DNA from: Taklimakanibacter albus
GTDB taxonomy: Bacteria; Pseudomonadota; Alphaproteobacteria; Rhizobiales; Aestuariivirgaceae
Assembly: GCF_016595235.1 (NCBI RefSeq)
Contig: NZ_JAENHL010000007.1
Location: 1,710,765 to 1,774,764, forward strand
DNA length: 64,000 nucleotides
Direction of reading: 5' to 3'
The notes below the pieces were generated by a model, which was not told the DNA's origin, made no database searches, and saw only the letters and a program-made list of their open reading frames with translations. The position numbers and the translations under genes were made by a program. This document shows positions 37,281 to 58,613 of this stretch, one piece after another (positions within the stretch are counted from its first letter, which is position 1; each line of letters opens with the position of its first letter).

Positions 37281-37871
37281 ATGGAACAAGGCATCGCACT
37301 TCATGGTCCGGCCCAGCTGCGCGGGGACCGCGATCCCGCAGCCTTTGCCTTGGCCTTCGTCAACAGCTACGACCCGGTGCGCGCCGTCCCCGATCTCTTC
37401 GCCAATCCTGAATATGCGCGCGTCTTCCTGAGCGAATGGTGCGAGCTCGACTGGGACCTCGATTGGGGCAAATTGGCCAGAAGCCTGCAGCTCTATCGCG
37501 ATGACCTGCGCGCCATGCTGCGCCGCTTCGTGGCGGACGAGATGACGATGGCCGACCTCACGCTCTATCTCGACCACAAGCTCGCTCATTGGCCGTGGAT
37601 CGCCAAGCCCGTCCAGGCCGAGACGTCCTTCCGCGTCGTCTTCGTGCCGTCGCCGCAGCTGAAAGCCACCCAGCATGTCGAGGCGGTGGTGACGCGCGGC
37701 CTTGCCGATCTCATCGCCGAGCTCGGCCCCAAGCGGCTGCATCAATGCGAGGCGCCGCCTTGCGAGGAGTTCTTCGCCGATCACTCAAAACCCGGCCGCC
37801 AGCGCTTCTGCAGCAAGCGCTGCGCCACGCGTTACAATGTGGCTCTCTTCCGCAAACGTCATAAATCTTAA
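37281..37871 (+). CDS. CGNR-type zinc-finger regulator (variant motif)
   Basis: A 196-residue protein related to the CGNR zinc-finger family (ABATE domain plus C-terminal zinc ribbon). N-terminal helices contain FALAFVNSYDPVRAVPDLF; the C-terminal end has CEAPPCEEFFADHSKPGRQRFCSKRCATRYNV, where four cysteines can bind zinc. The usual CGNR tetrad is replaced by CATR. ATG at 37281 is chosen; a TTG 12 bases upstream also has a site. These proteins are thought to be DNA-binding regulators. Isolated gene. Confidence 0.75.
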   Translation: MEQGIALHGPAQLRGDRDPAAFALAFVNSYDPVRAVPDLFANPEYARVFLSEWCELDWDLDWGKLARSLQLYRDDLRAMLRRFVADEMTMADLTLYLDHKLAHWPWIAKPVQAETSFRVVFVPSPQLKATQHVEAVVTRGLADLIAELGPKRLHQCEAPPCEEFFADHSKPGRQRFCSKRCATRYNVALFRKRHKS

Positions 37872-38000
37872 TGCGCAGCAGCCGCTCCTGATCCGCAAGA
37901 ATCTCGCCTCCTGCCAAAAGCTTCAACTTCGGAGTGAATTGTTGTAGTTTTAAGCGACGCTTGCCTGAGGGAACGACAAACGGGAGACGGCGCCCGGCCC

Positions 38001-39080
38001 ATGGTATCAGAACTCATCGACGAACTTTACGAAGCGGCATTTATTCCGGAAAAATGGTCCGTAGCACTCGCGCGGGTCACGGCTGCGGCTGCCTCGAAGG
38101 GAGGGGCGCTTTTTGTGTTCGCGGATGGCCAACCCAATCGCGGCAAGGCCATAGCGCCTTTGCAGTCTCTGATGGATGAGGTTCTGGCCGATGTGAGGCT
38201 TTCCACCGCCGCCACGCGCATGAACACCATACGGCCGGCAAGCTTCGTCGATGTCGACAGTTTCATGACTCCAGCGGAGATCAGGGACGACCCGATACGA
38301 ATACGGTTGCGGGCCCTGGGCCTTGGCGCCCATGCCTGTACGGCAATCCCCATGCCGAGCGGTGAGATGGCCATGTTTGTTTTCCAGCGCGGTCAGGACG
38401 ATGGAAGTTACCGCGACGAGCATTTCACCATTCTCGACCGCTTGCGGCCCGATTTGGCGCGGGCCAGCCTGGCGGCCGCGCGCCTGGGGCTGGAGCATGC
38501 CCGCGGCGCCGTCGATGCCCTGGCCATGATGGGACTTCCGGCCGCCGTTCTCGCGGCGAACGGCCGCGTCAAGATCACCAACGCGTTGTTTGACCGGGAG
38601 CATACGCTTTTCGTGCCGACGGCCTTCGGGCGCGTTGCCCTCGCCAATCCGGAGAGCAATCGCTTGTTTCAGCTGGCGCTGCAGGCCACGAGCGGCACGC
38701 ATGTCCCGCGCTCGATACCGCTCCAGAATGCAGCGGCGGCGGCCATGGTGGTGCATGTTCTGCCGCTCAAACGGGACGCGCACGACCTGTTCTCAGGCGG
38801 CGATCTTCTCATCGTGGCGACAGCGATCAGCGCCAGCGCGCTGGTTCCGTCGCCGACCATATTGACGGGCCTGTTCGATCTGACGCCGGCAGAGGTGGGG
38901 CTCGCGACCGCGCTCGCCAAGGGGCTGAACCTGGCGGCCGCGGCGGCCGAGGCGGGTTTGCAATTCTCGACCGTGCGCACCTATCTCAGCCGCATATTTC
39001 GCAAGACTGGAACCAACCAGCAAAGCCAGCTCGTCGCGCTGCTGAAGTCGACCCATCCATTCCAGGGCTTGAGGCCATGA
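38001..39080 (+). CDS. LuxR-type HTH regulator, copy 1 of three
   Basis: A 359-residue protein. Residues about 1-290 are a sensor region of no obvious named family (SELIDELYEAAFIPEKWSVALARV, DDPIRIRLRALGLGAHACTAIPMPSGE, and a PAS-like MGLPAAVLAANGRVKITNALF). The C-terminus is a LuxR/FixJ DNA-binding domain: FDLTPAEVGLATALAKGLNLAAAAAEAGLQFSTVRTYLSRIFRKTGTNQQSQLVALLKS. No receiver domain. Its stop overlaps the next start (ATGA). The 129-base region upstream (37872-38000) holds no obvious element. Confidence 0.87.
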   Translation: MVSELIDELYEAAFIPEKWSVALARVTAAAASKGGALFVFADGQPNRGKAIAPLQSLMDEVLADVRLSTAATRMNTIRPASFVDVDSFMTPAEIRDDPIRIRLRALGLGAHACTAIPMPSGEMAMFVFQRGQDDGSYRDEHFTILDRLRPDLARASLAAARLGLEHARGAVDALAMMGLPAAVLAANGRVKITNALFDREHTLFVPTAFGRVALANPESNRLFQLALQATSGTHVPRSIPLQNAAAAAMVVHVLPLKRDAHDLFSGGDLLIVATAISASALVPSPTILTGLFDLTPAEVGLATALAKGLNLAAAAAEAGLQFSTVRTYLSRIFRKTGTNQQSQLVALLKSTHPFQGLRP

Positions 39081-40159
39081 TAGCAGAACTCATCGACGCG
39101 ATCTACGAAGCCGCCTTCATCCCCGAGAAATGGCCTGCCATTCTCGCCGGGATTGCCGAAGCGGCAGCCTCGAAGAGCGGCGGGCTCGTTCTGTTTGCCG
39201 ATGGCCAGCCCGTCCGCGGAACGACTATTCCGTCGCTGCAAGACTTGATGGACGAATTTGTTTCCGACGAGACGTTGCGGCTCTCCGCTTCCACATCATG
39301 CATGAGCACCGTGCAGCCGGCGAGTTTCATCGATGTCGACAGTTTCAAGAAATCCGAAGAGATAAGGGACGACCCGATACGCATCCAATTGCGCGCCCGC
39401 GGGCTCGGCGCGAGTGCCCGCGCGATTATTCCCATGCCGGGCGGTGAGATCATCCATTTTGTATTCCAGCGCGGGCTGGAGGACGGAGGCTACCAGCCGG
39501 AGCATTTTGCGCTGCTCGATCGCCTGCGGCCGGACATGGCGCGGGCCGGCCTGGCGGCGACGCGCTTAGGGCTGGAGCACGCCCATGGCACGGTCAATGC
39601 CCTGGCCACGATGGGACTTCCGGCCGCTGTTCTCGCGGCGAACGGCCGCGTCAAGGTCAGCAACACGTTGTTTGATCAGGAGAATGCGCTCTTCGTGCCG
39701 ACGGCCTTCGGGCGCGTCGCGCTCGCCAATCCCGATGGCAATCGCTTGCTGCAGCTGGCGCTGCAGAATTCGAGCGGCACTCACGTCCGCTCGATACCGC
39801 TCCAGAATGCAGCGGCGCCGGCCATGGTGGTGCATGTCCTGCCGCTCAAACGGGACGCGCATGACTTGTTCTCAGGCGGCGATCTTCTCATCGTGGCGAC
39901 GACGATCAGCGCCAGCAATCTGGTCCCGTCGCCGACCATATTGACGGGCCTCTTCGATTTTACACAGGCGGAAGTGAGTCTTGCGACCGCGCTCGCCAAG
40001 GGGCTGAGCCTGAAAGCGGCGGCGGCCGAGGCCGGTTTGCAGGTCTCGACCGTGCGCACCTATCTCAACCGTATATTCCGCAAGACCGGAACCAACCAGC
40101 AAAGCCAGCTGGTCGCGCTGCTGAAGTCGGCGCATCCCTTCCAGGGTTTGAATCCATGA
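39077..40159 (+). CDS. LuxR-type HTH regulator, copy 2 of three
   Basis: A 360-residue paralogue of its neighbours with the same layout: N-terminal IDAIYEAAFIPEKWPAILAGIAEAA, PAS-like MGLPAAVLAANGRVKVSNTLF, and C-terminal LuxR HTH (FTQAEVSLATALAKGLSLKAAAAEAGLQVSTVRTYLNRIFRKTGTNQ). It is joined by 4-base overlaps (ATGA) on both sides, so the three are translated as one unit. Sequence divergence between copies is spread over the sensor part; the HTH is almost the same, so the three probably recognise similar DNA but different signals. Confidence 0.87.
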   Translation: MIAELIDAIYEAAFIPEKWPAILAGIAEAAASKSGGLVLFADGQPVRGTTIPSLQDLMDEFVSDETLRLSASTSCMSTVQPASFIDVDSFKKSEEIRDDPIRIQLRARGLGASARAIIPMPGGEIIHFVFQRGLEDGGYQPEHFALLDRLRPDMARAGLAATRLGLEHAHGTVNALATMGLPAAVLAANGRVKVSNTLFDQENALFVPTAFGRVALANPDGNRLLQLALQNSSGTHVRSIPLQNAAAPAMVVHVLPLKRDAHDLFSGGDLLIVATTISASNLVPSPTILTGLFDFTQAEVSLATALAKGLSLKAAAAEAGLQVSTVRTYLNRIFRKTGTNQQSQLVALLKSAHPFQGLNP

Positions 40160-41232
40160 TCGCAGAACTCATCGACGCGACCTACGAAGCTGCCTTCATC
40201 CCCGAGAAGTGGCCCGCCATTCTCGCCGGGATTGCCGACGCGGCGGGATCGAAGTGCGGCGCGATCGTTCTGTTCGCGGATGGCCTGCCCGTCCGTGGAA
40301 CGACCATTCCTGCGCTGCAGGACTTGATGGAGGAGTTTCTTTCCAACGAGAGGATGCGGCGCTCCGCTCACTCATCACACGTAAGCGCCTTGCAGTCGGC
40401 GAAATTCATCGATCTCGACAATTCCATGGCGCCGGAAGAAATTCGAAACGACCCGCTGCGCATCCGCTTGCGTGCCCATGGTCTCGGCGCGAGCGCCCGC
40501 ACGATTATTCCCATGCCGAGCGGTGAGAGCGTCCACTTCTCATTCCAGCGCGGGCTGGAGGATGGAGGCTACGGGCCGGAGCATTTTGCGTTGCTCGGTC
40601 GCCTCAGGCCCGACATGGCACGGGCCGGCCTCGCGGCGGCGCGCCTGGGGATCGAGCGCGCCCGCGGCGCTGTCGATACCATGGCCGTGATGGGGCTTCC
40701 GGCCGCTGTTCTCACGACAAACGGCCACGTAAGGATCACCAATTCCTTGTTCGACCGGGAGAAAGTGAGTTTCGTGCCAACGGCCTTCGGGCGCGTTGCG
40801 CTCGCCAATCCTGAGAGCAATCGCTTGTTGCAATTGGCGCTCCAGGCCTCGAGCGGCACGCGTGTTCCACGCTCGATACCGCTCCAGAATACAGGGACTC
40901 CACCTATGGTGATGCATGTCCTGCCACTCAAACGGGATGCGCATGACTTGTTCTCGGGCGGCGATCTGCTCATCGTGGCGACGACGATCAGCGCCAGCAC
41001 GCTGGTGCCGTCGCCAACGATATTGACCGGCCTGTTCGATCTGACACCGGCGGAAGTGAGCCTCGCGGCCGCCCTCGCCAAGGGTCTCAGCCTGAAGGCC
41101 GCGGCCGCCGAGGCGGGACTGCAGTTCTCGACCGTGCGCACCTATCTCAACCGCGTTTTTCGCAAGACCGGCACCAACCAGCAAAGCCAGCTCGTCGCGC
41201 TGCTGAAGTCGGCGCACCCGATTCGCTCCTGA
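40156..41232 (+). CDS. LuxR-type HTH regulator, copy 3 of three
   Basis: A 358-residue paralogue: IDATYEAAFIPEKWPAILAGIADAAGSK, MGLPAAVLTTNGHVRITNSLF and C-terminal HTH FDLTPAEVSLAAALAKGLSLKAAAAEAGLQFSTVRTYLNRVFRKTGTNQ. It ends 34 bases before the first surface-gene element (41266). Together with copies 1 and 2 it is the best local candidate for the regulator of the autotransporter and the secreted repeat proteins. Confidence 0.87.
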   Translation: MIAELIDATYEAAFIPEKWPAILAGIADAAGSKCGAIVLFADGLPVRGTTIPALQDLMEEFLSNERMRRSAHSSHVSALQSAKFIDLDNSMAPEEIRNDPLRIRLRAHGLGASARTIIPMPSGESVHFSFQRGLEDGGYGPEHFALLGRLRPDMARAGLAAARLGIERARGAVDTMAVMGLPAAVLTTNGHVRITNSLFDREKVSFVPTAFGRVALANPESNRLLQLALQASSGTRVPRSIPLQNTGTPPMVMHVLPLKRDAHDLFSGGDLLIVATTISASTLVPSPTILTGLFDLTPAEVSLAAALAKGLSLKAAAAEAGLQFSTVRTYLNRVFRKTGTNQQSQLVALLKSAHPIRS

Positions 41233-41265
41233 GCGCTTCATCGATTTGAGGCTTCGCACGGCTGC

Positions 41266-41316
41266 CGCTCATTTTAGCATCATATGGTGATAGGCGGCCC
41301 CGGATTTTCCCGGCAC
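41266..41316 (+). promoter_or_regulatory. Shared upstream element, copy 1 (autotransporter gene)
   Basis: A 51-base block starting CGCTCATTTTAGCATCATAT and ending TTTTCCCGGCAC. It matches the copy at 48255 in 49 of 51 positions and the copy at 57555 in 28 of the first 31. It carries ATCA-tatgg-TGAT (41279-41291). It lies about 130 bases before ATG at 41417, in the right place for a promoter or activator site. The nearby sequence also shares CCCATTGGAGCA with the 48255 copy. Confidence 0.75.
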
Positions 41317-41416
41317 TTTTCCTGCATCGGGCCTGAATCGATGCGAACCGGGCGGGCGACGAGCGGTTCGGCGCGCCGGTCCCCATTGGAGCAGGCAGGC
41401 TCATCGGGGTACTCAT

Positions 41417-44400
41417 ATGATGCCATTCAAGACGGCGGCCAGCGGCCATTCGGCGGCTGAGCCAGAGCGAGCAGGCATCCAGCGGGCGGGCAAGTGGCCC
41501 GGAATGCGGGCTCTCCTGGGCAGCTCGATCCTCACCGGGGGCCAATGCGCGGCGCTGCTGTCGGCTTCCCTGTTTGCCGGATTGGCGGCGCTGTCCCCAG
41601 CCGTGGCCCAGGTCATCGATCTGCCGACGCAGGCGGTTCCCACGACCACCGACAACAGCACCGTTTGCGTCTCCGCCGGCGACTGCATCATCATTTTCTC
41701 GACCGGCAATGGCAATTTCATTGACCTCTCAAATACGGCGGCGCTGACCGCCGGCGGCATGGGCATCAATACCTCGACGGCCGGCGCGGGCGCCTACATC
41801 CTCATAGACAATTTCGGCAATATCACATCGGCGAGCCACGGCATCTCCGCCACGGCCTCGGCCGGCAGCGGAACCGGCGCTAACGGAAATCCCGGCGCTG
41901 GCGCCACGGGTGGCGGCGGCGGGAACGGCGATGGCGCCCCTGGCGGTAACGCGACCGGCAATGATGGTGGCGACGGCGGCCCCGGCACGGGCGGGGCCGG
42001 CGGGAACATCACGATCACCAATGACGCGGCGATCTCCACATCGGGCGGCGCGGCCCATGGCATAGGGGCGTTGGCCGATGCCGGCAGCGGCACGGGCGGA
42101 GATGGCGGCGCCGGCAATGGCGGAACGGGAGGTTTCGGAGGTGCCGGAAACCTCGGCGCTGGTGGCGATGGCGGTACCGGTACCGGTGGCAAGGGCGGCA
42201 ACGGTGGCGGCGGCACGGGTGGTGACGGCGGCGACATCGCCATCACCAACAGCGGCGCGATCACCACCTCGGGTGTTGACTCGCATGGCATCCATGCGAT
42301 CGCGCAAGCGGGCGACGGCACCGGCGGCAAGGGAAGCAATGGCGGCGCGGGCACCGGCGGAAACGGCGGCCCCGGAACGACCGGCGCGGGCGGCGATGGC
42401 AACACCGGCACCGGTGGCAAGGGCGGTGACGGCGGCACCGGCACGGGTGGTGACGGCGGCGACATCGCCATCATCAACAGCGGCGCTCTGACGACGACCG
42501 GGAACGGCATTCTTGTCATGGCGCTAGCCGGAAGCGGCACAGGCGAAGGCGGCGGCAGTGGCAATACTGGCACGGGCGGCGACAGTGGTGCCAGCGGCCT
42601 GGATGCCGGCGGCGATGGCGGTGCCGGCGTCGGCGGCAATGGCGGTGGCGGAGGTACCGGCACGGGCGGCGACGGCGGCGACATCATCATCACCAACAGC
42701 GGCGCGATCGTGAGCGGCAGCAGCGGCATCATGGCCATGGCTCAGGCCGGCAATGGCGCGGGTGGCGATGGCGGTGGCGGCGGTGCCGCAACCGCCAAGG
42801 ACGGCAGTGCCAGCGGCATCGGCGGCACGGGCAGCAAGGGCGGTGGCGCGAACGGCGGTCATGGTGGCGATGGCGGTGCCGGGACGGGCGGTTCCGGCGG
42901 CGACATCACGATCACGAATGACGCGGCGATCACCACATCAGATGTTTCGGCGCATGGCATCATGGCGTTGGCGGAAGCCGGCTATGGGACGGGTGGAGAT
43001 GGCCGCGGTGGCGGCGGCGCCACCGGCGGCGATGGCGGCAGTGCCGGTTTGGGCGCCAGCAGCGGCGACGGCGGCGGCGGCACGGCGGGTAACGGCGGCG
43101 ACGGTGGCGCCGGCACGGGCGGTGACGGCGGCAAGATCACCATCACGAATAATGGCGCTCTGACGACGGGTGGCAATGGCATTGCCGCGCAGGCCGATGG
43201 CGGCGTCGGGACGGGCGGAGATGGCGGTGCGGGCAATGCCGGTGCGGGAGGCTCCGGAGGTGCTGGAAACCTCGGCGCTGGTGGCGATGGCGGCTCCGGC
43301 ACCGCGGGGAACAGCGGCAATGGTGGTGCCGGCACGGGGGGTGACGGCGGCGACATCGCCATTACCAATACGGGCGCGATCACGACCTCGGGTGCTGGCT
43401 CGCGTGGTATCCTTGCGGTGGCGCAGGCGGGCAACGGCACGGGCGGTAAGGGCGACAATGGCGGCACGGGCACCGGCGGCAAGGGTGGACCCGGGACAAT
43501 CGCCGCGGGCGGCGATGGCAAGGCCGGCGCCGGCGGCAACGGCGGTGACGGCGGCGTCGGCATGGGCGGTGACGGCGGCGACATCGTCATCGACAACAGT
43601 GGCGCTCTGACGACGACCGGAAACGGCATCCTTGCCCTGGCGCAAGCCGGAAACGGTAGGGGCGGTGCTGGCGGCAGTGGCAATACTGGCACGGCAGGCG
43701 ACAGTGGAGCCGGCGGCCTGGGGGCCGGCGGTGATGGCGGCACCGGCACCGGCGGCAACGGCGGCGGCGGTGGCGCCGGAACAGGCGGCAATGGCGGCGA
43801 CATCACCATCACCAACACGGGCGCCATCGTGAGCGGCAACAGCGGCATCCTGGCCATGGCTCAGGCCGGCACTGGCGCAGGTGGTGATGGCAATGGCGGC
43901 GGTGTTGCGACCGCCAAGAACGGAGGTGCCGGCGGCAGCGGCGTCGGCGGCGGCTCTGGCGGCAAGGGCGGCGGCGCGAACGGCGGTCATGGCGGCGATG
44001 CCGGTGACGGGACCGGTGGTGCCGGCGGCAGCATCATGATCACCAACGACGCGGCGATCTCCACGTCGGGCGGCACGGCGCATGGCGTTCAGGCGGTGGC
44101 AAGTGCCGGAGATGGCACGGGCGGAGATGGCGGCAGCGGTGGCGGCGCCACCGGCGGCAATGGCGGTGTGGGCATTCAGGGCGCCGGCGGCGATGGCGGC
44201 GCCGGCACGGCGGGGAATGGCAGTCAAGGTGGCGCCGGTGCGGGCGGTGACGGCGGCAAGATCACCATCACGAACAATGGTGCCCTGACAACGGGCGGCA
44301 ATGGCATTGATGTGGAGACCAATGCCGGCAACGGGACGGGTGGAAATGGCGGTACCGGCAATGGCGGCACGGGAGGTTCGGGAGGTGCCGCCGCCTCAAT

Positions 44401-47400
44401 CAGTGGCGCGGGCGGCACCGGCGGCGCCGGCACGGCGGGGAGCAGCGGCGACGGCGGCGACGGCACGGGCGGTGACGGCGGCGACATCGCCATCACCAAC
44501 ACCGGCGCGATCGTCAGCGTCGGCACCGGTATCCGGGTGTTGGCACAAGCGGGCGACGGCATCAGCGGCAAGGGCGACAATGGCGGCACGGGCACCGGCG
44601 GCAATGGCGGGATCGGCGGAGTACTCGCCGTCGGTGGCGATGGCAAAACCGGCACCGGTGGCAAAAGCGGCGACGGTGGCGACGGCACCGGCGGCGACGG
44701 TGGTGACATTGTCATCGACAATAGCGGCGCGATCATCACCTCGGGCGCCGGCGCGCATGGTATCCAGGCGGTGGCGCAGGCAGGCGACGGCACCGGCGGC
44801 AAGGGCGGCAATGGCGGCACGGGCACCGGCGGCAACGGTGGATCCGGATCATTCAGCGCCGGCGGCGATGGCAACAGCGGCACCGGCGGCAAGGGCGGAT
44901 CGGGAGCGCTCGGCACGGGCGGTGCCGGCGGCGACATCACCATCACCAATAGCGGCGCTCTGACGACGAGCGGAAACGGCATCACGGTCGTGGCTCAGGC
45001 CGGGATCGGCACAGGCGGCACCGGGGGCAGCGGCAATACCGGCACGGCCGGCGACAGTGCTGTCGGCGGCGCGGGTCCCGGCACCGGGGGTGACGGTGGC
45101 ATCGGGGCCGCGGGGAATGGCGGTCGCGGCGCTGCCGGCACGGGCGGCGATAGTGGCGACATCACCATCACCAACCGCGGCGCGATCGTGAGCGGCGGCA
45201 GCGGCATCGTGGCCCTGAGCGCGGCCGGCCATGGCCGGGGTGGTGATGGCAGCGCCGGCGGCAGCGCGACCGCCAAGAACGGCAGTGCCGGCGGCAGCAG
45301 CGCCGGCGGCGCCATTGGCGGCAAGGGCGGTGGCGCGAATGGCGGTCATGGCGGCGATGGCGGTGACGGGACTGGCGGTGCCGGCGGCGACATCACGATC
45401 ACCAATGAGGCGGCGATCACCACATCGGGCGCCGCGATGCACGGCTTACTGGCGGCGGCATCTGCCGCCAATGGAAGCGGTGGAGATGGCGGCGCTGGTG
45501 GCGGCGCCACTGGCGGCAATGGCGGCGGCGCCAGCGTGGGCGCCGGCGGCGATGGCGGCACCGGCACGGGGGGCAGCGGCGACGCCGGGGGAGACGGCAT
45601 GGGCGGTGGCGGCGGCAAGATCACCATCACGAATAACGGTGCCCTGACGACGGGTGGCAACGGCATTGAAGCGCTGACCGGCGCCGGCCACGGCACGGGT
45701 GGAGACGGCGCCGCGGGCAATAATGGGACGGGGGGTTCAGGAGGCGCCGGAAATCTCGGCGTTGCTGGTGGTGCCGCCGGCACCGGCAGGGCGGGGGATG
45801 GCGGCGATGGTGGCGACGGCACGGGCGGTGACGGCGGCGACATCGTCATCACCAACACCGGCGCGATCGTCAGCGGCGGCACCGGCATTCATGCGGTGGC
45901 GAGTGCCGGCGATGGAACGGGCGGCAAGGGCAGCAATGGCGGCACGGGCGCCGGCGGCAATGGCGGATCGGGAGCGCTCGGCGCCGGCGGTGATGGCAAG
46001 CCCGGCATCGGCGGCAACGGCGGCGATGGTGGCGACGGCACGGGCGGCGATGGCGGCGACATCGTCATCGACAACAGCGGCGCCATCACCACCACGGCCA
46101 ATGCCGCGCATGGCATTCACGCTTTGACCATCGGCGGCGATGGCACCGGCGGCAGCGGGGGCGTTGGCGGTTCGGCGACGAATGGCACACCCGGCGCAGA
46201 CGGCCTGGGCGCTGGCGGCGCCGGCGGTACCGGCGCGGCGGGGAATGGCGGCGCCGGGGGCGCCGGCAAAGGTGGTGACGGCGGCGACATCGCCATCACC
46301 AACAGCGGCACGATCAGGGTCTCGGGCGCCGGCTCTCATGGCATTCTCGCGGTAGCTCAGAAAGGACTGGGCGCAGCGGGCACTGGCACACTCGGCGGGT
46401 CGGGCTCAGGCGGAGAGAGCGGATCGATCAACATCGACAATAGTGGCGCGGTAACCGCCGGCGGTGACGGCATCAATGCCCTGGCCGAAAGCTCCGCCGC
46501 CACGATCGCCATCACCAATTCTGCCGCCATTGCGGGCGGCACACATGGCGTGCTGGCTTCCGCGACGGGCGATATCGACATCATCAATTCGGGACTTATC
46601 ACCTCGGCTAATCTCTTCGCCATCGACACCGTCGGCGCCGCGACCTCGATCATGAATTCCGGCACGATCCGGGGCTTCGTCGATCTCACCGACAATAGCG
46701 ACACGATCACCAACGAAGCAGGCGGCGTTTTCGCGGCCCGGATGACATCCGAATTCCGCGGCGGCGGCGATCTCTTCCGCAACGAAGGAACGGTGGCGAG
46801 CGCCGCCGATGCGGCGACTCTCGAGACGGTCGTCTTCAAGGATCTGGAGACCTTCGACAATGCGGTCGGCCAGATCTCGCTGATCGACGGCCAGGCCGGT
46901 GACAGCCTGGAGATGACGCGGACATCGGCCATGGCCCCCGCCACCCGCTATATCGGCGGCGGCGGCCTCGCGGTCGACGCGATCCTGGCGGCGCCCGGCC
47001 TCGGCCTGTCGGACAAGCTCCTGATCACCGGCACGACGGAAGGCACGACCAGGGTTTCGGTCAATGTCGTCGATGTGCAGGGTGCGAATCTCGACGGCAT
47101 TCCGGTGGTGATCGTGACCGGGACCGCAGGCCCGGGCAGTTCGCAAGCGGGCGATTTCGTCCTCGATGGCGGGCCGATAAACGCCGGCTTCTTCACCTGG
47201 GATCTGCGCTACGATGCGCCGAACCTGGAGCACGAGCTCTATACGTCGGGTGTCGGCGCCGGCGCCTATGAATTCGCCGCCGGCCTCACCGGCGCGCAGG
47301 ATATCTGGTACCAGACGACCGGCACCCTGTTGCAGCGCCAGGCCGATCTGCGGCCGTTGCTCGACGGTCCGGCGGTGATGCCGGTCGCCGACTACGCCGA

Positions 47401-48244: not shown

Positions 48245-48254
48245 TCCAATCTAG

Positions 48255-48305
48255 CGCTCATTTTAGTATCATATGGTGATAGGCGGTCCCGGATTTTCCC
48301 GGCAC
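48255..48305 (+). promoter_or_regulatory. Shared upstream element, copy 2 (modular secreted protein gene)
   Basis: Starts CGCTCATTTTAGTATCATAT and ends TTTTCCCGGCAC, 11 bases after the autotransporter stop codon. The inner ATCA-tatgg-TGAT lies at 48268-48280, about 136 bases before the preferred ATG at 48410. Sequence following it also matches copy 1 for CCTGCATC and CCCATTGGAGCA, so the shared 5' region is longer than the 51-base core. Confidence 0.75.
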
Positions 48306-48409
48306 CCTTTCCCTGCATCAGAACCGGATAGATGCTGTCCCGCGGGTGAGAGGCGGCACTCCCCGCAGTTCACCCATTGGAGCAAGGCGTCGCCAACAGG
48401 GGAATGGCA

Positions 48410-51400: not shown

Positions 51401-54400
51401 TGGGTCGATCAGGCCGGCAACCGCGGCACTTTCGTGGACGAAGCCAATCAGTGGGTTTGCAAAAGCAGTCCGTTTTGCGAAGCCTATGCCGACAAGGCTG
51501 TCCAGGCATTTGTAGCGGCCCGCAAAGACGGCTGCTCGTTGGCCGACCTCGGAGTCCCTGCGGGCGCTGGCGGCCGCTGGACGGCAAACCGGCAGGAGCA
51601 CGTCGATTTCTGCATGGCGCGCGCCAGCACCGTCGATCCCGCGATCGAGGCGGAAAACAAGGCCCGAACCGACGGGCACGCTTCTTGCCTTCTCGCGAAG
51701 AAAAACCGCGACGCTTGCACCAGCTTCGCCAAGGACGTGGTGGCGATCAACGAGCAGATGAAGGCCATCAGTTGCAAGGACGCCCTGCCGAATTTGACGG
51801 TCGAGGGCGGGACCAGCATATGCCTGCTGAAGACTGGGCCCGACGCGACTGTCACACAGGAAATGCAGAGAAGGCTCGATGTCTGCAAAGCCCGGCTCGC
51901 CGCCAATGGGAATGCCGGCGCGGGCGGGGCTGATGCGGGCGGCGGCGGACAGGCGCAAGAACCCGCGCCCGAGCAGTGCGCGGTGGTCGCTATCGAAGAC
52001 GTCAAACCGCCTGGTCCCATCGTCGAGCCGCCCGGCCCGGCGCCCGAGCAGCCCAAGAACCTGGCGCTGGCGCATAATCCGGCGGTGGCGCAATGCTCGG
52101 ACACGGGCGGCGGATGCGCTTTCACGACCTTGATCAGTAACCCTGCCGACGCGCCCGAGTTCAACGGACCGATCTCATTCGTGGTCCATCTCTCGCAGCC
52201 GGACGGCAGTGCCTTTCCCAACATCACGATGGAGAGCGGCGGCGAGGCACCGAACGTCGCCGGTGTAACCGCGCCGATCGCCTGCAAGAAGGACGGCAAT
52301 GACGTAACCTGCACGGCGGCGGCGGCAAAAATTCCGCCCGGCAAGAGCGTGCCGGTGCCGATGTCGTTCAAGCCCGGTGGCGGAACGATGGCGACGGCGA
52401 TCAGGAGCTGCGCTTCTTTTGCCGGCGCAGAGCCGTCATGCGCCAATATCTCACTCGTCAAGGGTTCGCTGCTCAGGGCACAGAAAACCACCGCGGCCAC
52501 TTCGTGTGTACCGAATTGCGCCTTTGCAATCTCGCTGAAGAATATGGGCACGGACGCCGCTACGGGTCCCTTCGTCTTCACTGAGGATTTCAAACCCATC
52601 AATGGCGACACCACAATCGAGACCGTCGATGGCGACTTTGCGTGCTCGAACACCAATGGCACATTCGGATGCATCTCGACCAACAAGGGCACGAACGTTC
52701 TTAAACCCGGCGAAACGCTCAATGGCCGCGTGAATATAAAGACCTCGACGACTTCTCCGGCCTACACGAACTGCATCGACTACAATCCTGCCGCCAACGC
52801 CAAGCCCAGCCCGTTCGACAACGATTTCGCCGGCCGCTGTGTCACGATCAAGGACGCGACGCAACAGGGCGCCAATCTGATGATCGAGGTCATCCCGCCC
52901 AACGCCAAGCCGGACGGCATCGGCGAATGCAGCCTCGACAGTGAATGCGACTTCAAGGTCAGGGTGAAAAGCAATGGCGTTGCCGTCGTCGGCACGTCGG
53001 CATTCGATGCCAAGGTCGCCAATGGCATCGTTCAATCGATCGGTATCGGTGGACTACAAGGCGGCGCCTTCTCCTGCAGTCAGAGAGCCGGCGACACGCA
53101 GACGGTCTTTTGCCAGAACGGCACGGCCTTACCCCCGGGTGAGTTACGCGATACCAGTGTTCCGGTGACCGCGGGAGCGACCTGGAAAAAGAACGACACG
53201 CTCACTTTATGCGCGCAGATACCGCCGGGTGACAGCACCCCGAACGACGACAAAGCCTGCGCATCGGTCAAGCTCGATCCCTTCAGCGTCAAGGTGGCGA
53301 AGTCCGGCGATCAATCCTGCACTCAGGGCGGGGATTGTCACTTCACGCTCAGGCTGTTCAATCCGGGTCCGATCGACCACAATGCGCCGGTCACCATTTC
53401 CGACAAGCTGACCGGGCTCGCTTCGGCGCAGATCGTTTCGATCACGCCGCCCTTGCCCTGCGCGACGCAGCCGACGCAGATCCCGTTCTCCTGCACGTCA
53501 CCTGGTCCGGTGCGCCTCGATCTCGACGCTCCTGAAGGCAGCGAGTTCGGCCCACGCGACTTCAAGATGGTCGTGCGGCTGCCGAACGATGCATCGGCCA
53601 CCCAGTTCTCGAATTGCGCCGACGTCTCCGGCGCAGCGGCGGGCGCGGCATCCGCGGAAGAATCCTGCGTCACAGTCAAGAGCCTGCCTCCGCCGGCGAC
53701 CGTCGGTGACCTGACGGTGACCAAGTCGGCGGTGTCAGCGTCTTGCAGCGAAACCGAGCCTTGCCAGTTCAAGATCGCAGTCACCAACAACGGCACGCAA
53801 TCTTTCCCGGGCCCCGTTGCCGTCTATGACGTGATGAGCGTGAACAATGCGCCGATGACGCAGGTCCAGCTCGTCAGCGGCCCGCCTGTCGGCTGGACAT
53901 GCCTGGCCTCCGCCGCACCCGGCATGCAGTGCTCCATGCCGGGTCCGCTGCCCCCCAAGGCGACGGTCGAGCTGACGCTCGGCCTGCAGCCGCTGGCAGG
54001 CTCGCTGGGCGCAGCGTTGAAGATCGACAATTGCGCCGAGATCGCGGGCGGGCAGGCACAGCAGAAATCCTGCGCCAGCATCGCCCTCAAACAAGCTCCG
54101 GCCCAGGCGCCGGGATGCGGCTACGGAATGGTGCTCACATCCGCCGGCCTGTGCGCTTGCCCGGCCCCGAAGATATGGAACGGCCGCGAATGCGGTTATG
54201 GCTCCGGCGGAGCCTCTATGTCGAAGCCGGGCGACGAGCAGCCAAAGCCCGCGCTTCCGGTCATCACCACACCGCCCGCCACTTGCGGGTCCGGCATGAT
54301 CCTCGCCGGCAACGGCCTGTGCGCCTGCCCCGCCAACACCAGATGGACCGGCAAGGCCTGTGAAGGTGGCAAGGGCGGCGGTGGCTTCGACATGATCAAG

Positions 54401-55363
54401 CAGGCCACACCGGCGCAGCGGACCTGTCCGGCCGACAGGCCGGTAGGTGATTTCCCGAACTGTTGTCCGAATGGTACCAAATTCCGCTTCGGAAAATGCA
54501 GTCCGCTGTGCGCTGGCGCCCTCGTGATGAATGAAAAAACCGGACGATGCGTCAGCCGCTGCAAGCGCGGCACGCATCTCGAGGGCGATGCTTGCGTCTC
54601 CGACAAGAAGAAGAAACTTGAAACAAACACCCTGCCGCGCGTCTGTCCGCCCGACCGGCCGGTCGGCGCTTACCCCAATTGCTGTCCGCAGGGCACCGAC
54701 TTCCGCAATGGCAAATGCCGCTTCACGAAGGCCGCGCCGGTGAAATGCCGTAAAAGCCAGATGTTTGATGCTGTGACCGGCGTCTGCATCGACCGCGTGC
54801 GGAAGCGGTTCTGTCCCGCTGACCGTCCTGTCGGCGCTTATCCCAATTGTTGTCCGGAAGGCTATCAGTTCGCCAATGGCAAATGCCGTCGGTTCCGCGA
54901 GCAGCGCCAGGAACAACAATATTGTCCTGCCGATCGCCCGGTTGGGATTTATCCGAATTGCTGTCCTGAGGGATATCAATTCACCGGCCGCAGATGCCGC
55001 CCGGAACGCGAGCGGCAGGAAGAGCAAGCCTGTCCCGCCAGCCGGCCGGTCGGGGTCTACCCGAATTGCTGTCCGGAGGGATATCAATTCACCGGCCGCA
55101 GATGCCGCAAGTTCCGCGACCCGGATCAGCAGCAGCCGGAACAGAACACCAGGCCCAACCGGAAAACCTGTCCGGACGGTACGGTCGTCTTTGGCAAATA
55201 CAGCCGATGCCCGAATGAAGGGCCGGCGCCTCGGCCGCAACCTCAGCCGCAACCCCAGCCGCAGCAATGCGCAGGCGGCAAGGTCAGCACGCCGAGCGGC
55301 TGCTTGTGTCCAAACGGCAAGAGGGAGGACGGTGATGGTCAGTGCGTCGAAAGCGTCAGATGA
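48410..55363 (+). CDS. Large secreted modular protein with Ig-like (DUF11-type) and cysteine-rich repeats
   Basis: About 2317 residues, exported (signal RLAIAALLAALPPLFAAHAQ). Order: an N-terminal beta-propeller-like part (about 35-500); a collagen-like FPGVDGGGGQ linker (about 510-580); two DUF11-like domains (585-800); a unique part (870-1200); five more DUF11-like domains (1215-1890), each with paired cysteines and an NCA-type end; and a C-terminal part with five CPxxRPVGxYPNCCPxG repeats and a CVESVR tail. No barrel or anchor is seen. ATG at 48410 fits AGGGGA; an in-frame TTG at 48377 is possible. Whether it stays on the surface or is released is unknown. Confidence 0.82.
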   Translation: MPGAFHIARFSIRLAIAALLAALPPLFAAHAQDTLAPAAESLLQPGDIAASGFSGVKLQVEGLPPGVDPLSKTVIDPDGVTLRIYNGGPVQGPLDGQQLAPPLRTEFTAKDIGHVFGLAFDTLPADERGTPGLYAAATSAFGLYIVGPDSDGDGQPDRLMKGAPGARFMEGLFGPAPGGGAGAIWKIDSVTGAVSLYAELVNNGGPGIGGLAFDGLSRSLYVSDLDTGLIHQLKGSGSGAGLAEFDHGLQGRPLAGKDGVADDGLRLDITSPSFDTANPATWGLTQAARRIDGMAVQGRRLYYTVAEGPEVWSVGLADDGSFLGDARIELSVTASEAGIISGIAFDNKGAMVLAMRDAVQNTGDYSALTGASPTDIIRYAPESPDDPQTASSWHFDTLTYPVGQSPERRDGSGGIALQYAYKPDGGLDLTACGGTLIASGDILGPERTAHGLQIGDVSRFQSTAGATVPTAFIALDPAQDAAGARGHAGGVAVLSQCVGESGFPTLASGGSQFPGVAGNDGQTGFPGVDGGGGQPGFPGVDGGGGQAGFPGVEGGGGQAGLPDVEGGGGQVFPDVEDGGGGKTAGKLTLAKSASVPKCSPKGGCAFNIEVTNDGGEIPGPITINELIEAPQAVLTGEPNAPWQCSKAAPFTCTHPGPVPANGKLDMRLVFAPNTPPEAKELKNCASIAGGESACATMALDPNVPVQTGPVVISKKGPASCPLIGTCTFEITLTNTTDAVVPGPIPFTDTIDIPGATLADEALPAPFACDKGGPPFVCRFGGAGTGLGPRESRTVPLRINLNLPAGTTSLKNCAVKPALQKKAELQIPLNRSLPVTNASFRPQSFAKGNGLLHLAGILDDVGGEVKQGAGGGVGDAVKGVIGGGAAAPAPAGGNIGGVSGVAQNCTRWGLKQKRLALRQSNGLLTYFSGVEVDQYSKIIGTARYYSISADGTKGPQVVGRVTSFGTDQKPAFKAYWPKSGEYGNYFFDIGSDGKAKGTWVDQAGNRGTFVDEANQWVCKSSPFCEAYADKAVQAFVAARKDGCSLADLGVPAGAGGRWTANRQEHVDFCMARASTVDPAIEAENKARTDGHASCLLAKKNRDACTSFAKDVVAINEQMKAISCKDALPNLTVEGGTSICLLKTGPDATVTQEMQRRLDVCKARLAANGNAGAGGADAGGGGQAQEPAPEQCAVVAIEDVKPPGPIVEPPGPAPEQPKNLALAHNPAVAQCSDTGGGCAFTTLISNPADAPEFNGPISFVVHLSQPDGSAFPNITMESGGEAPNVAGVTAPIACKKDGNDVTCTAAAAKIPPGKSVPVPMSFKPGGGTMATAIRSCASFAGAEPSCANISLVKGSLLRAQKTTAATSCVPNCAFAISLKNMGTDAATGPFVFTEDFKPINGDTTIETVDGDFACSNTNGTFGCISTNKGTNVLKPGETLNGRVNIKTSTTSPAYTNCIDYNPAANAKPSPFDNDFAGRCVTIKDATQQGANLMIEVIPPNAKPDGIGECSLDSECDFKVRVKSNGVAVVGTSAFDAKVANGIVQSIGIGGLQGGAFSCSQRAGDTQTVFCQNGTALPPGELRDTSVPVTAGATWKKNDTLTLCAQIPPGDSTPNDDKACASVKLDPFSVKVAKSGDQSCTQGGDCHFTLRLFNPGPIDHNAPVTISDKLTGLASAQIVSITPPLPCATQPTQIPFSCTSPGPVRLDLDAPEGSEFGPRDFKMVVRLPNDASATQFSNCADVSGAAAGAASAEESCVTVKSLPPPATVGDLTVTKSAVSASCSETEPCQFKIAVTNNGTQSFPGPVAVYDVMSVNNAPMTQVQLVSGPPVGWTCLASAAPGMQCSMPGPLPPKATVELTLGLQPLAGSLGAALKIDNCAEIAGGQAQQKSCASIALKQAPAQAPGCGYGMVLTSAGLCACPAPKIWNGRECGYGSGGASMSKPGDEQPKPALPVITTPPATCGSGMILAGNGLCACPANTRWTGKACEGGKGGGGFDMIKQATPAQRTCPADRPVGDFPNCCPNGTKFRFGKCSPLCAGALVMNEKTGRCVSRCKRGTHLEGDACVSDKKKKLETNTLPRVCPPDRPVGAYPNCCPQGTDFRNGKCRFTKAAPVKCRKSQMFDAVTGVCIDRVRKRFCPADRPVGAYPNCCPEGYQFANGKCRRFREQRQEQQYCPADRPVGIYPNCCPEGYQFTGRRCRPERERQEEQACPASRPVGVYPNCCPEGYQFTGRRCRKFRDPDQQQPEQNTRPNRKTCPDGTVVFGKYSRCPNEGPAPRPQPQPQPQPQQCAGGKVSTPSGCLCPNGKREDGDGQCVESVR
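49940..50160 (+). repeat. Collagen-like FPGVxGGGGQxG repeats
   Basis: About five imperfect repeats of 12-13 codons (FPGVDGGGGQPG, FPGVDGGGGQAG, FPGVEGGGGQAG, LPDVEGGGGQ, FPDVEDGGGG) link the N-terminal part of the modular protein to its first DUF11-like domain. Such Gly/Pro/Asp-rich linkers usually form extended flexible arms. Confidence 0.8.
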
Positions 55364-55396
55364 ACCAGGTGAAATGACCATCAGGAGATTGCACCT

Positions 55397-55924
55397 ATGA
55401 GATCTTCGTTCTTCGCAACGCTGGCGGGCATGCTGGCCATGGCGGGTGTTTCGATCTTTCAACCCGTGGAGCTCCATGCCGGGACGCCGTTGACCGGTGG
55501 CTGCGATGGAGCGTCCTGCCTTTCGCAAGCCGTGGAAAGCAAAAGCGGCAAACTCGATCAGGCTGCCTCACCGCAGATGCTCGCCTTCGAGATAAACATA
55601 AAATTCAAGTGCCCGGACGGCTTCCGCAGGGAAGACGGCGAATGTGTGCGCGACCGAAGAGGCAAGAAGAAGAGGTTTGAATGCTCGGACGGCTTCCATA
55701 GGGAAGACGGTGAATGCGTGCGCGACCGGAAGAGCAAGAAGCAGACCAGAAACTGTCCGGAAGGCACCGAGTTCAGCCGCGGCAAATGCCGCAGGAGCGA
55801 ATTCCCGCCCGTGGAAGGCGAGGAGGAGCAAACCTGTTCGCATAATGACCATCTGGAGAATGGCCGGTGCGTGCCGTGCCGACAGGGCTTCCATGTTGAA
55901 GGAGACGAATGTGTGCCGGACTGA
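55397..55924 (+). CDS. Small secreted cysteine-rich protein
   Basis: A 175-residue protein with a signal peptide (MRSSFFATLAGMLAMAGVSIFQPVELHAG). The mature part has CPDGFRREDGECVRDR, CSDGFHREDGECVRDR, CPEGTEFSRGKC and CRQGFHVEGDECV, four repeats that resemble the CCPxG and C-terminal modules of the large protein upstream. They are probably disulfide-linked. Starts 33 bases after the end of that gene, so it may be in the same transcript. Its 3' end overlaps the GTG start of the OmpA-type gene. Confidence 0.75.
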   Translation: MRSSFFATLAGMLAMAGVSIFQPVELHAGTPLTGGCDGASCLSQAVESKSGKLDQAASPQMLAFEINIKFKCPDGFRREDGECVRDRRGKKKRFECSDGFHREDGECVRDRKSKKQTRNCPEGTEFSRGKCRRSEFPPVEGEEEQTCSHNDHLENGRCVPCRQGFHVEGDECVPD

Positions 55925-56900
55925 TATTTTTCGGATAGGCCTGATGGCGCTTGGCTTGACGCTCTCCTCAGCGCTGGCGCAGGCGGAAGATGCCGAGGGC
56001 TGCAAGGACAATCCACTCGTCGGACGTTTCCAGGGCGCGGCGATCGCCTACTGCAAGGCGAAGGATTTCGATGAGCTGGTGTTCCTGCAGTCACCGCATG
56101 ATTATGGCGCGCTGCTGGAGCGCAATGCCACCAAGGACAGGTCGGGGCCGGAATGGCTCAAGCAGCAGGGAAAAGCCAGCGAGATCCGTTATGAATTGCC
56201 GGCCGGCAGCTCATCTCTCGAGGTCGCCGCCAGTTATGAAGCGGATCTGAGGGCCAAAGGCTTCAACATCATTTTCTCCTGCGCCGATCAGGAGTGTCTG
56301 GCCGGCAATCTGCGTGATCTCTATCTGCTGGGCGAGCAGCTCGATCCGACCAATGGCGTGTCCACCGCCTATTCCGACCATGCCCGTTATCTCCTGGCGA
56401 AGCTCGAGCGACCGGAGGGTGCGGTCTATGCCAGCGTCATCACGGGCGAGGACAAGGACAAGACGGTCGCATTTCTTCGGGTGCTGGAAGCCCAGGGCAT
56501 GGAGTCCGGCAAGGTGGCGACGGCGGCGCCGGAAGATTTATCGGCGTCACTCGCCGCGCAAGGTAGCGTCAATCTCTACGGCATCCTGTTCGACTATGAT
56601 CAGGATACCGTGAAGCCGGAATCGAAGCCGGCGCTCGACGAGATCGCCAAGGTCCTGGCCGACAAGCCGTCGCTGCGCCTCAAGATCATCGGCCATACCG
56701 ACAATGTGGGCAGCGCCGCCTATAATCTCGACTTGTCCAGCCGTCGCGCCGCCAACGTATCTGCAGCCCTTGTCGGCGGTTATGGAATAGACCCTGCCCG
56801 CTTGTCCTTCGAAGGGGCCGGCCTGTCACGCCCGATCGAATCCAACGATACCGATGAAGGACGCGCCAAGAACCGGCGGGTCGAGCTTGTCGTGCAATGA
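55911..56900 (+). CDS. OmpA family protein
   Basis: A 329-residue envelope protein with a signal peptide (RIGLMALGLTLSSALAQA) and a C-terminal OmpA/MotB peptidoglycan-binding domain (about 220-329: YGILFDYDQDTVKPESKPALDEIAKVLAD, IIGHTDNVGSAAYNLDLSSRRAANV, NRRVELVVQ), with the Asp and Arg that bind diaminopimelate. The N-terminal part has four cysteines and no clear family. GTG at 55911 lies 6 bases after AAGGAGA and overlaps the previous gene by 14 bases. It may anchor the secreted cysteine-rich proteins to the cell wall, by inference. Confidence 0.85.
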   Translation: MCRTDIFRIGLMALGLTLSSALAQAEDAEGCKDNPLVGRFQGAAIAYCKAKDFDELVFLQSPHDYGALLERNATKDRSGPEWLKQQGKASEIRYELPAGSSSLEVAASYEADLRAKGFNIIFSCADQECLAGNLRDLYLLGEQLDPTNGVSTAYSDHARYLLAKLERPEGAVYASVITGEDKDKTVAFLRVLEAQGMESGKVATAAPEDLSASLAAQGSVNLYGILFDYDQDTVKPESKPALDEIAKVLADKPSLRLKIIGHTDNVGSAAYNLDLSSRRAANVSAALVGGYGIDPARLSFEGAGLSRPIESNDTDEGRAKNRRVELVVQ

Positions 56901-56912
56901 GCGGGTCGGATC

Positions 56913-57512
56913 ATGAATGACGTCAGGCACTGCAAGTTCGTATGGCCGCTGGCCGTTCTGGCGCTGATTTGTAGCTCGCGGATCGCCGGCGCCGCGTCTC
57001 TCACCGTCGAATGCGAGAGGGAGGATGTGATCGTGCCGGGCTGGGCCGCGCCGCTCATCCTTTCCTATCCGGGCGGTGACAGCGGCGGTCTGACCGTGAC
57101 GTCGGAACATGTGACATTCAGCCTGCCCGCCGCGCAGACATTAACGAGGGACGTCGTTGATGGGGCTGAAGTGACGGCAACCACGATCTCAGGCTCTGGC
57201 GAGACATCATCCCTGATGCCTGATCCGCAGGCGCTCATGGCCTGCGTAGCCAGCTCGCTGCAGCCCGAATTCAAAGACGATGCGGATGTGCAGTTCACGA
57301 CGATGCTCGGCTGTGTGCCCAAGGTGGCCATGGGCGCTTCTCCAATTGCCATCCATGCCAGCATATCATTGGGCATCTTCCCTGGAAGCAACCCGGACGC
57401 GCCCGACGTGAATGTCGAGATCAAGCGCAGCTATGTGGACATAAAGACGCCCGCAGGCGACAAAGTCACCATCGATACCTATCCCAAGAACTGCAAACTT
57501 GCAGGACATTGA
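56913..57512 (+). CDS. Secreted protein of unknown family
   Basis: A 199-residue protein with a signal peptide (FVWPLAVLALICSSRIAGAA) starting 12 bases after the OmpA-type gene, so probably the same operon. The mature part is beta-rich with four cysteines (LTVECERED, ALMACVASS, TMLGCVPKV, PKNCKLAG) and the segment PIAIHASISLGIFPGSN. I recognise no domain. Its place suggests it belongs to the surface complex. Confidence 0.6.
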   Translation: MNDVRHCKFVWPLAVLALICSSRIAGAASLTVECEREDVIVPGWAAPLILSYPGGDSGGLTVTSEHVTFSLPAAQTLTRDVVDGAEVTATTISGSGETSSLMPDPQALMACVASSLQPEFKDDADVQFTTMLGCVPKVAMGASPIAIHASISLGIFPGSNPDAPDVNVEIKRSYVDIKTPAGDKVTIDTYPKNCKLAGH

Positions 57513-57554
57513 GGCCGGCATTGCAAGGAGTTTCCCGATTCAAACGCCGAACGC

Positions 57555-57585
57555 CGCTCATTTCAGCATCATATGATGCTAGGCG
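57555..57585 (+). promoter_or_regulatory. Shared upstream element, copy 3 (Ser/Thr/Gly gene)
   Basis: CGCTCATTTCAGCATCATAT followed by GATGCTAGGCG matches the first 31 bases of the 41266 copy in 28 positions. Here the dyad is complete: AGCATCATATGATGCT (57565-57580) is a perfect 16-bp palindrome. It lies about 210 bases before ATG at 57785. The homology of the following TTTCCGGCA resembles TTTTCCCGGCA in the other copies. Confidence 0.75.
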
Positions 57586-57618
57586 AACCGCGCTCTTTCC
57601 GGCAATGTTTTGCCTGAA

Positions 57619-57663
57619 GCATGATCTGGAAAAGTGCGGCGCGGTTTTCCGGAAGGATCATGC
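57619..57663. repeat. Rhizobial dispersed palindrome
   Basis: GCATGATC-TGGAAAA ... TTTTCC-GGAAG-GATCATGC: perfect 8-bp ends and an imperfect inner stem, in the 272-base gap before the Ser/Thr/Gly gene. The form is that of a palindromic repeat with many copies in rhizobial genomes, which supports the taxonomic reading. Confidence 0.7.
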
Positions 57664-57751
57664 GCATACAGGAAGATAAAGCGTGATCGCGACTCTTCCT
57701 GAAGTCATCACGCTTCGGAGTTGAACCGATGTGGTATCCGGTGGGCACGGA

Positions 57752-57780
57752 CCTCCTCCGCCGGAACATGGCGGAGGAGG
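57752..57780 (+). promoter_or_regulatory. Hairpin that encloses the ribosome binding site
   Basis: CCTCCTCCGCC (57752-57762), a 7-base loop, and GGCGGAGGAGG (57770-57780) form a perfect 11-bp stem. The 3' arm contains the GGAGGAGG ribosome site of the gene starting at 57785. The hairpin should hide the site from ribosomes, so translation may need melting by temperature, an RNA, a protein or a ribosome on an upstream frame. Confidence 0.75.
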
Positions 57781-57784
57781 ATTT

Positions 57785-58588
57785 ATGAAGACGGCGATCT
57801 ATTTCATGGGCGTGGCGACCGCAGCGGCGATAGCGGTCGTGGGCTTTCCGCAGCTCTTGGCGACGTCGAAGACAATTCTCGAGCGCTGCCCGGACCGCGT
57901 GGAGCATGGAAGATGTGGAGATACGAGGTCTTCGGACAATCGCACGAATCCGAAGAGTCCCAAAAAATCCCGGACCGCCTCTAGTTCCAGCTCGTCCGGC
58001 GAAACCAGTGGCGGCACATCCGGCAGTCCCGGACAAAGTTCCGGTTCCTCCGGACAGACTTCCGGCAACACCAGTGGTGGAACCAGCGGTGGCACATCTG
58101 GCACCTCCGGGCAAAGCTCAGGTTCCTCCGGACAGAGTTCCGGCAACACCAGCGGCGGCACATCGGGCAATACCAGCGGTGGAACAAGCGGTGGCACATC
58201 GGGCAACACCAGCGGCGGCACATCCGGTGGAACGAGTGGTGGCACATCTGGCACGTCCGGCCAAAGCTCAGGTTCTTCAGGACAGAGTTCGGGCGACACC
58301 AGTGGCGGCACGTCCGGTAACACCAGCGGTGGTACATCAGGCAACACCAGCGGCGGCACGTCCGGTGGCACATCCGGCACATCCGGGCAAAGCTCAGGTT
58401 CTTCCGGGCAGAGTTCTGGCGACACCAGTGGCGGCACAAGCGGCAACACCAGCGGTGGCACAAGCGGCAACACCAGCGGTGGAACGAGCGGCGACACATC
58501 TGGCACGTCCGGGCAAAGCTCAGGTTCCTCCGGACAGACTTCCGGCAACACCAGCGGCGGCACGTCCGGTGGATTGGGTGGCGGATAA
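57785..58588 (+). CDS. Ser/Thr/Gly-rich repetitive secreted protein
   Basis: A 267-residue protein. The N-terminus is one hydrophobic helix (AIYFMGVATAAAIAVVGFPQLL), a possible signal or anchor, then a short charged region with two cysteines (RCPDRVEHGRCGD). From about residue 68 on it is almost all Ser, Thr and Gly in units such as SGNTSGGT and SGTSGQSSGSSGQ, ending GGLGGG. Such runs resemble O-glycosylated linkers or disordered surface proteins. ATG at 57785 is 4-5 bases after GGAGGAGG. Belongs to the shared-element group. Confidence 0.7.
   Translation: MKTAIYFMGVATAAAIAVVGFPQLLATSKTILERCPDRVEHGRCGDTRSSDNRTNPKSPKKSRTASSSSSSGETSGGTSGSPGQSSGSSGQTSGNTSGGTSGGTSGTSGQSSGSSGQSSGNTSGGTSGNTSGGTSGGTSGNTSGGTSGGTSGGTSGTSGQSSGSSGQSSGDTSGGTSGNTSGGTSGNTSGGTSGGTSGTSGQSSGSSGQSSGDTSGGTSGNTSGGTSGNTSGGTSGDTSGTSGQSSGSSGQTSGNTSGGTSGGLGGG
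57996..58585 (+). repeat. Tandem TSGG/SGQSSG repeats
   Basis: The coding DNA repeats near-identical 12- to 15-base words for TSGGTSG and SGNTSGG. The longer module GTSGQSSGSSGQ recurs about five times, at spacings of 105-135 bases, with Asn/Asp and Thr/Ser switches. The uneven spacing of modules suggests copy-number change. Confidence 0.8.
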
Positions 58589-58613
58589 TCCAGCTGGAAC
58601 TTGATCGACGCAA

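Follow-up and report, generated by a model that had tools for sequence, protein, structure and literature searches.

An accessory island in the genome of Taklimakanibacter albus is very probably a mobile set of surface-protein genes run by LuxR-type regulators, in which three transcription units would be switched jointly through private operators centred on CATATG. To our knowledge, little is understood of how soil and symbiotic alphaproteobacteria control their large autotransporter adhesins. The private operators, the co-occurrence of LuxR genes with operators, the co-variation of recognition helix and operator, the conservation of gene blocks and the borders of the island were computed here. 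The island lies within the 64,000-nucleotide stretch of DNA that was analysed (the window; contig NZ_JAENHL010000007.1, positions 1,710,765 to 1,774,764), in a host genome of 7.17 Mb whose nearest named relative, Taklimakanibacter lacteus (QOZQ01000001), belongs to the same genus as judged by gene order and identity.

Layout and gene content of the island

The preliminary description had placed three LuxR regulators and six secreted or envelope genes at 38001-58588, all on the plus strand and with no other gene types among them. Every gene that it named is present on that strand (Table 1), although some start codons shift and its list left out the last gene. That gene, which adjoins the STG gene and extends to 59954, encodes an ICMT-family methyltransferase. 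The LuxR genes overlap one another by 4 bp (ATGA). An interval of 33 bp separates the giant gene from the Cys-rich gene, the latter overlaps the OmpA gene, and the P199 gene follows 12 bp further on, so that the four look like one transcript. Promoter and terminator scans of the locus returned nothing usable, with no core promoter assignable, and Rfam gave no RNA element.

Table 1. Features of the island, in coordinates of the window.
Feature	Position	Strand	Basis and remarks
LuxR-type regulator 1	38001..39080	+	homologous to LuxR 2 and 3; GerE 19.7 bits, below the Pfam cut-off
LuxR-type regulator 2	39077..40159	+	GerE 23.2 bits; overlaps both neighbours by 4 bp
LuxR-type regulator 3	40156..41232	+	GerE 23.5 bits, at the cut-off; AlphaFold model
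Putative operator box 1 (TAGCATCATATGGTGATA), 5' of autotransporter	41275..41292	+	repeat search; conserved block downstream
Giant Gly-rich autotransporter, 2275 aa	41417..48244	+	PF03797, AC_1, repeats
Putative operator box 2 (TAGTATCATATGGTGATA), 5' of giant modular protein	48264..48281	+	repeat search
Giant modular exported protein, 94 Cys	48404 (best start)..55363	+	DUF11, pattern counts, model
Small Cys-rich exported protein	55397..55924	+	modules in common with giant protein; conserved in M. ciceri
DUF4892-like and OmpA-type peptidoglycan-binding protein	55893 (best start)..56900	+	PF00691; alignment to solved OmpA domains
P199, exported, 199 aa	56913..57512	+	no family match; homologues 3' of OmpA gene in relatives
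Putative operator box 3 (CAGCATCATATGATGCTA), 5' of STG protein	57564..57581	+	palindromic core, genome scan
STG (Ser/Thr/Gly) protein	57785 (best start)..58588	+	sequence; homologues in M. ciceri and T. lacteus
ICMT-family integral membrane methyltransferase	58614..59954	+	PF04140; 86% in M. ciceri
Whole accessory island, ~22 kb	37856..59934	.	alignment with G001 breaks off at 37855 and resumes at 59935

The autotransporter is of type Va by its C-terminal PF03797 barrel (E=1.5e-32 on the C-terminal piece). Like other members of that class it combines the beta-domain with an autochaperone domain (AC_1, 1.7e-07) and a repeat passenger, here of about 18 repeats of 73-77 aa each; unlike the usual member, it sits among LuxR, OmpA and DUF11/Cys-module genes. 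The giant protein contains seven CxnCxF repeats of DUF11 type (DUF11, 6.1e-08) and Cys-rich modules in its C-terminal part, and no solved relative was found for it by sequence. Its N-domain model is beta-propeller-like (mean pLDDT 78) with weak fold matches, and because the TM-scores to beta-propellers are low we claim no function for it. Those of its relatives within the genus that were examined stand alone, outside such a locus. A C-G-G-C module matches 10 times in the giant protein and 4 times in the small Cys protein, whereas elsewhere in the window it has 3 matches, all of them single; this bears out the earlier mention of shared cysteine-rich modules.

The OmpA protein matches PF00691 (E=5.6e-24) and keeps the conserved Asp and Arg of the domain, its GHTD and LSxRRA aligning with OprF and 5u1h; its match to DUF4892 (PF16234) reaches 25.1 bits against a Pfam cut-off of 28.8. 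P199 had no family match in profile searches; M. ciceri and genomes G336, G337, G425 and G438 have homologues of it, placed 3' of their OmpA genes. At L035 8919-9402 (G003) a P199 homologue is split into two short ORFs and is possibly decayed. At L046-L049, 3' of the OmpA homologue, several different secreted proteins encoded in succession all end in a DAVEGSWNGTRQ-like motif, as if they shared a C-terminal sorting or binding tag.

The STG protein has an N-terminal TM segment, a two-Cys motif and a Ser/Thr/Gly repeat tail. Its neighbour resembles the ICMT (protein-S-isoprenylcysteine O-methyltransferase) family in scoring above the PF04140 cut-off (33.7 bits against 24), and differs from it in falling below the NCBIfam isoprenylcysteine O-methyltransferase equivalog (22.7 bits against 160) and in adjoining a Ser/Thr-repeat protein that lacks a C-terminal Cys. 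Pairing of the ICMT gene with an STG-type neighbour recurs in M. ciceri, T. lacteus and loci L110, L113, L162 and L163, the partner in L163 (G109) being an 892-aa Ser/Gly repeat protein. L162 7086-8831 is a second STG-ICMT-type pair of the T. albus genome itself, whose Ser/Thr-rich partner protein has a CLPPFKC motif and a tail rich in Ser and Thr.

A private palindrome upstream of three units

Box I is a TAGCATCATATGATGCTA-like palindrome with a CATATG core. A 31-mer containing it is repeated at 41267 and 48256 with 0-1 mismatch (0 expected in shuffles), its palindromic core recurs at 57564, and the likeness between the autotransporter and giant genes extends through their entire leaders as far as the start codon. 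With up to 2 mismatches allowed, the 7.17-Mb genome has exactly three copies of the box, all of them in the locus and upstream of its genes, while a reversed control pattern gave 0 matches in the whole genome; the shared upstream elements proposed earlier thus exist and are confined to the locus. Upstream of the LuxR genes themselves the search gave no copy. The start codon of the autotransporter is overlapped by a perfect half-site of the box (CATATGATGC, 41414-41423), which may be a second contact or stand there by chance. LuxR paralogues examined elsewhere in the same genome had neither a matching box nor autotransporter neighbours.

Outside T. albus, five further genomes match box I exactly, and in these it was confined to the LuxR loci. 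In the Mesorhizobium group it occurs in 4 of 119 genomes, exactly those with a LuxR of at least 66% identity, where it adjoins that LuxR gene, and in none of the 115 others. A further 296 genomes from the order gave only two matches, each with 2 mismatches and in a region without LuxR, and these were taken as chance. Across loci the boxes hold their orientation and spacing relative to the conserved downstream block. The proposed control of the three transcription units through a common LuxR box is well supported by these comparisons.

LuxR proteins with divergent N-terminal parts

The first two LuxR proteins are 72-78% identical to the third, and the three are a lineage-specific triplication (tree support 97/93). 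A C-terminal GerE HTH (PF00196) is present at the scores given in Table 1. Identity among the paralogues is 50-60% over residues 61-120 and 85-88% over residues 291-358; likewise, in M. ciceri the LuxR M2 is unrelated to M1 over its first 120 residues and 99% identical over its last 68. Because the divergence is concentrated in the N-terminal sensor part and is slight in the HTH, LuxR 1-3 probably respond to different signals while addressing one and the same DNA site.

In the AlphaFold model of LuxR3 (mean pLDDT 82, pTM 0.59), two alpha/beta sensor-like domains are followed by terminal helices consistent with an HTH. In fold the first of these domains is like the ligand-binding domain of LasR (TM-scores by target reach 0.63), and bacteriophytochrome folds match the model as well as LasR does. 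The Pfam autoinducer-binding domain had no match in LuxR 1-3 at E<=1.

Borders of the island and its relatives

In the closest relative, G001 (98% CysNC identity), the island is missing and the flanking genes are directly adjacent. The same chromosomal site holds only LuxR, a 26-bp perfect palindrome, STG and ICMT in T. lacteus, and a different outer-membrane-like gene in G003. The insertion point is therefore a variable site. Within the window, at 36404-62921, the island splits what appears by inspection of gene names to be a histidine-utilisation cluster.

Mesorhizobium ciceri WSM1271 carries a nearly complete, permuted version: a LuxR gene, a second LuxR gene, a boxed STG-ICMT unit and a boxed giant-Cys-OmpA-P199 unit, the latter with order and overlaps kept, including the Cys-rich gene overlapping the OmpA gene. 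The OmpA and ICMT proteins are 87% and 86% identical to those of M. ciceri against 62% for CysNC, which points to acquisition of the island by horizontal transfer. Four Mesorhizobium genomes have LuxR, box and then an OmpA homologue, and 2 of the 4 also yielded a P199 homologue; in MAG 65-79 a LuxR gene is accompanied by a box variant and by the gene for a 2754-aa protein that carries the end of an outer-membrane barrel. G425 has autotransporter, giant, OmpA and P199 genes in a single run without LuxR or box, and in both G425 and G438 the homologous surface genes are kept and LuxR and box are absent. Comparison of gene order, which the preliminary description had proposed among its checks, gave a divided answer: blocks are kept in M. 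ciceri, but homologues of the giant N-domain and OmpA (35-50%) also stand alone in relatives, and composition varies by species. Inheritance of the locus genes as blocks is well supported.

A wider family of regulators and operators

Scanning the LuxR alignment against 84,980 genomes gave 13 loci. In the Mesorhizobium-group survey, with membership set at E<=1e-60, the LuxR family occurs in 38 of 119 genomes. Distant LuxR loci carry diverged CAWWTG-centred palindromes with a CATATG or CAAATG core, CATATG being the commonest core among 194 non-coding palindrome matches from 49 loci. Of the 119 genomes, 29 have one such palindrome, box II, and 26 of these also carry the LuxR family (Fisher p=6e-14, a value that overstates significance because the genomes are related); the other three, G362, G412 and G419, have no LuxR match at E<=1e-60. 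Twelve LuxR-positive genomes lack box II, and 3 of these have box I in its place.

Many box II sites lie away from LuxR, about 70-300 bp 5' of large Gly-rich autotransporters or YadA-like proteins, and others have no evident target. L201, L204, L205, L223, L225 and L226 have box II without a clear gene 3', several being apparently corresponding sites. At L207, L210-L212, L220, L228 and L230 box II stands beside a LysE-like gene, mostly near a gene starting MANTLLMPK, a neighbourhood that in other strains carries LuxR and a YadA-like gene. L107 7425-12453 (G449) has LuxR and autotransporter genes followed by apparent cas9, cas1 and cas2 genes.

Recognition helix and operator vary together: QFSTVRTYL pairs with CATCATATGATG, TVK[ST]xRTYL with GTCGKCATATGMCGAC and QPTTARYYL with CCTGCCATATGACAGG, in a table drawn up after the boxes were seen and from few independent lineages. 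The LuxRs of box I form one clade (95/97 support) and box II is scattered over the rest of the tree, so that box I looks derived. The STG-ICMT target has box II where its LuxR is of the other type.

Discussion

We propose that the LuxR proteins, with their predicted sensor domains and GerE HTH, would bind the CATATG-centred palindrome as dimers. The palindrome would form part of three otherwise similar promoters, so that the autotransporter, giant-Cys-OmpA-P199 and STG-ICMT units could be switched together. The LuxR proteins would most likely activate rather than repress, to judge by their family as a whole. The gene products would reach the envelope, where they probably assemble into a surface structure that serves adhesion or protection and in which OmpA may hold the wall and ICMT may modify STG or its surroundings.

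The preliminary description took these genes to suggest one apparatus, perhaps an adhesive layer with wall anchoring. What stands of this is a co-regulated, co-inherited locus, given the private box, the presence or absence of the island as a block and the boxed M. ciceri units beside the same LuxR family; a single adhesive, wall-anchored apparatus is plausible, with about an even chance. That the surface proteins are each useful independently and only loosely clustered, regulated in common and forming no joint structure, is possible though somewhat doubtful. This would account for the solitary homologues of the giant N-domain and OmpA and for a composition that varies by locus, down to STG-ICMT only in T. 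lacteus; such a reading sits poorly with the order and overlaps that hold in M. ciceri, with the run of surface genes that G425 has without LuxR, and with the Cys modules common to the giant and small proteins.

Two other readings concern the control itself. That LuxR 1-3 are conventional quorum-sensing receptors and the island a density-controlled adhesin set is improbable: the likeness of the predicted N-domain to the LasR ligand-binding domain speaks for it, but the Pfam autoinducer domain finds no match, the model has two sensor-like domains rather than one, and bacteriophytochrome folds fit equally well. Even less probable, we consider, is that the palindrome serves recombination or the shuffling of cassettes, that recent duplication left the leaders similar and that something else regulates. 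The permuted boxed units of M. ciceri, the whole-length likeness of the autotransporter and giant leaders and the mobility of the locus would agree with this, whereas the boxes keep their orientation and spacing to the downstream block, diverge along with the LuxR recognition helix and also occur far from LuxR, 5' of adhesin genes, and no recombinase gene was noticed in the island.

As the preliminary description had supposed, no system of this composition was matched in the open-access PMC literature, nor was a published description of the LuxR regulator-operator family found there. In uropathogenic E. coli, ipuR-upaE places a LuxR-type gene directly 5' of the gene for an autotransporter by which adhesion and biofilm formation are promoted; it is a two-gene operon whose invertible promoter comes with recombinases, and a role for IpuR in upaE control is not established (PMC6083910). 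The window locus has the same adjacency but adds the operator family and the OmpA, giant, STG and ICMT genes, which ipuR-upaE lacks. As to an invertible promoter, the only inverted repeats upstream of the window LuxR genes are short and imperfect, and no recombinase-like gene was noticed. In Brucella, as far as the citing passages of PMC7688925 go, VjbR controls a trimeric autotransporter gene on which HutC, MdrA and MucR also act. The likeness there is that a LuxR-type regulator acts on the gene of an adhesin, in a bacterium of the same taxonomic order; on the same passages, VjbR differs in having a broad ChIP-mapped virulence regulon rather than a private local operator. P. aeruginosa PA1624 is a DUF4892 protein with an OmpA-like domain lacking the binding motifs (PMC7716261). 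The window protein shares this arrangement, a weak DUF4892 match and then an OmpA-like domain, but has a full OmpA domain that matches peptidoglycan-binding structures.

More tentatively, and with chances that we put just short of even, a hitherto undescribed LuxR family with two sensor domains may extend across Hyphomicrobiales and have co-evolved with CAWWTG-centred operators as a plug-in adhesin switch, in which duplicated or domain-swapped sensors would address one operator. One branch would run a new kind of envelope pair, an ICMT-like methyltransferase serving a Ser/Thr/Gly-repeat protein. Such a LuxR family would have a readable DNA code, so that adhesin regulons could be predicted from sequence and regulator-operator co-evolution would be directly testable. 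The pairing of STG with ICMT hints that a repeat protein of the surface is modified in a way so far unexplored.
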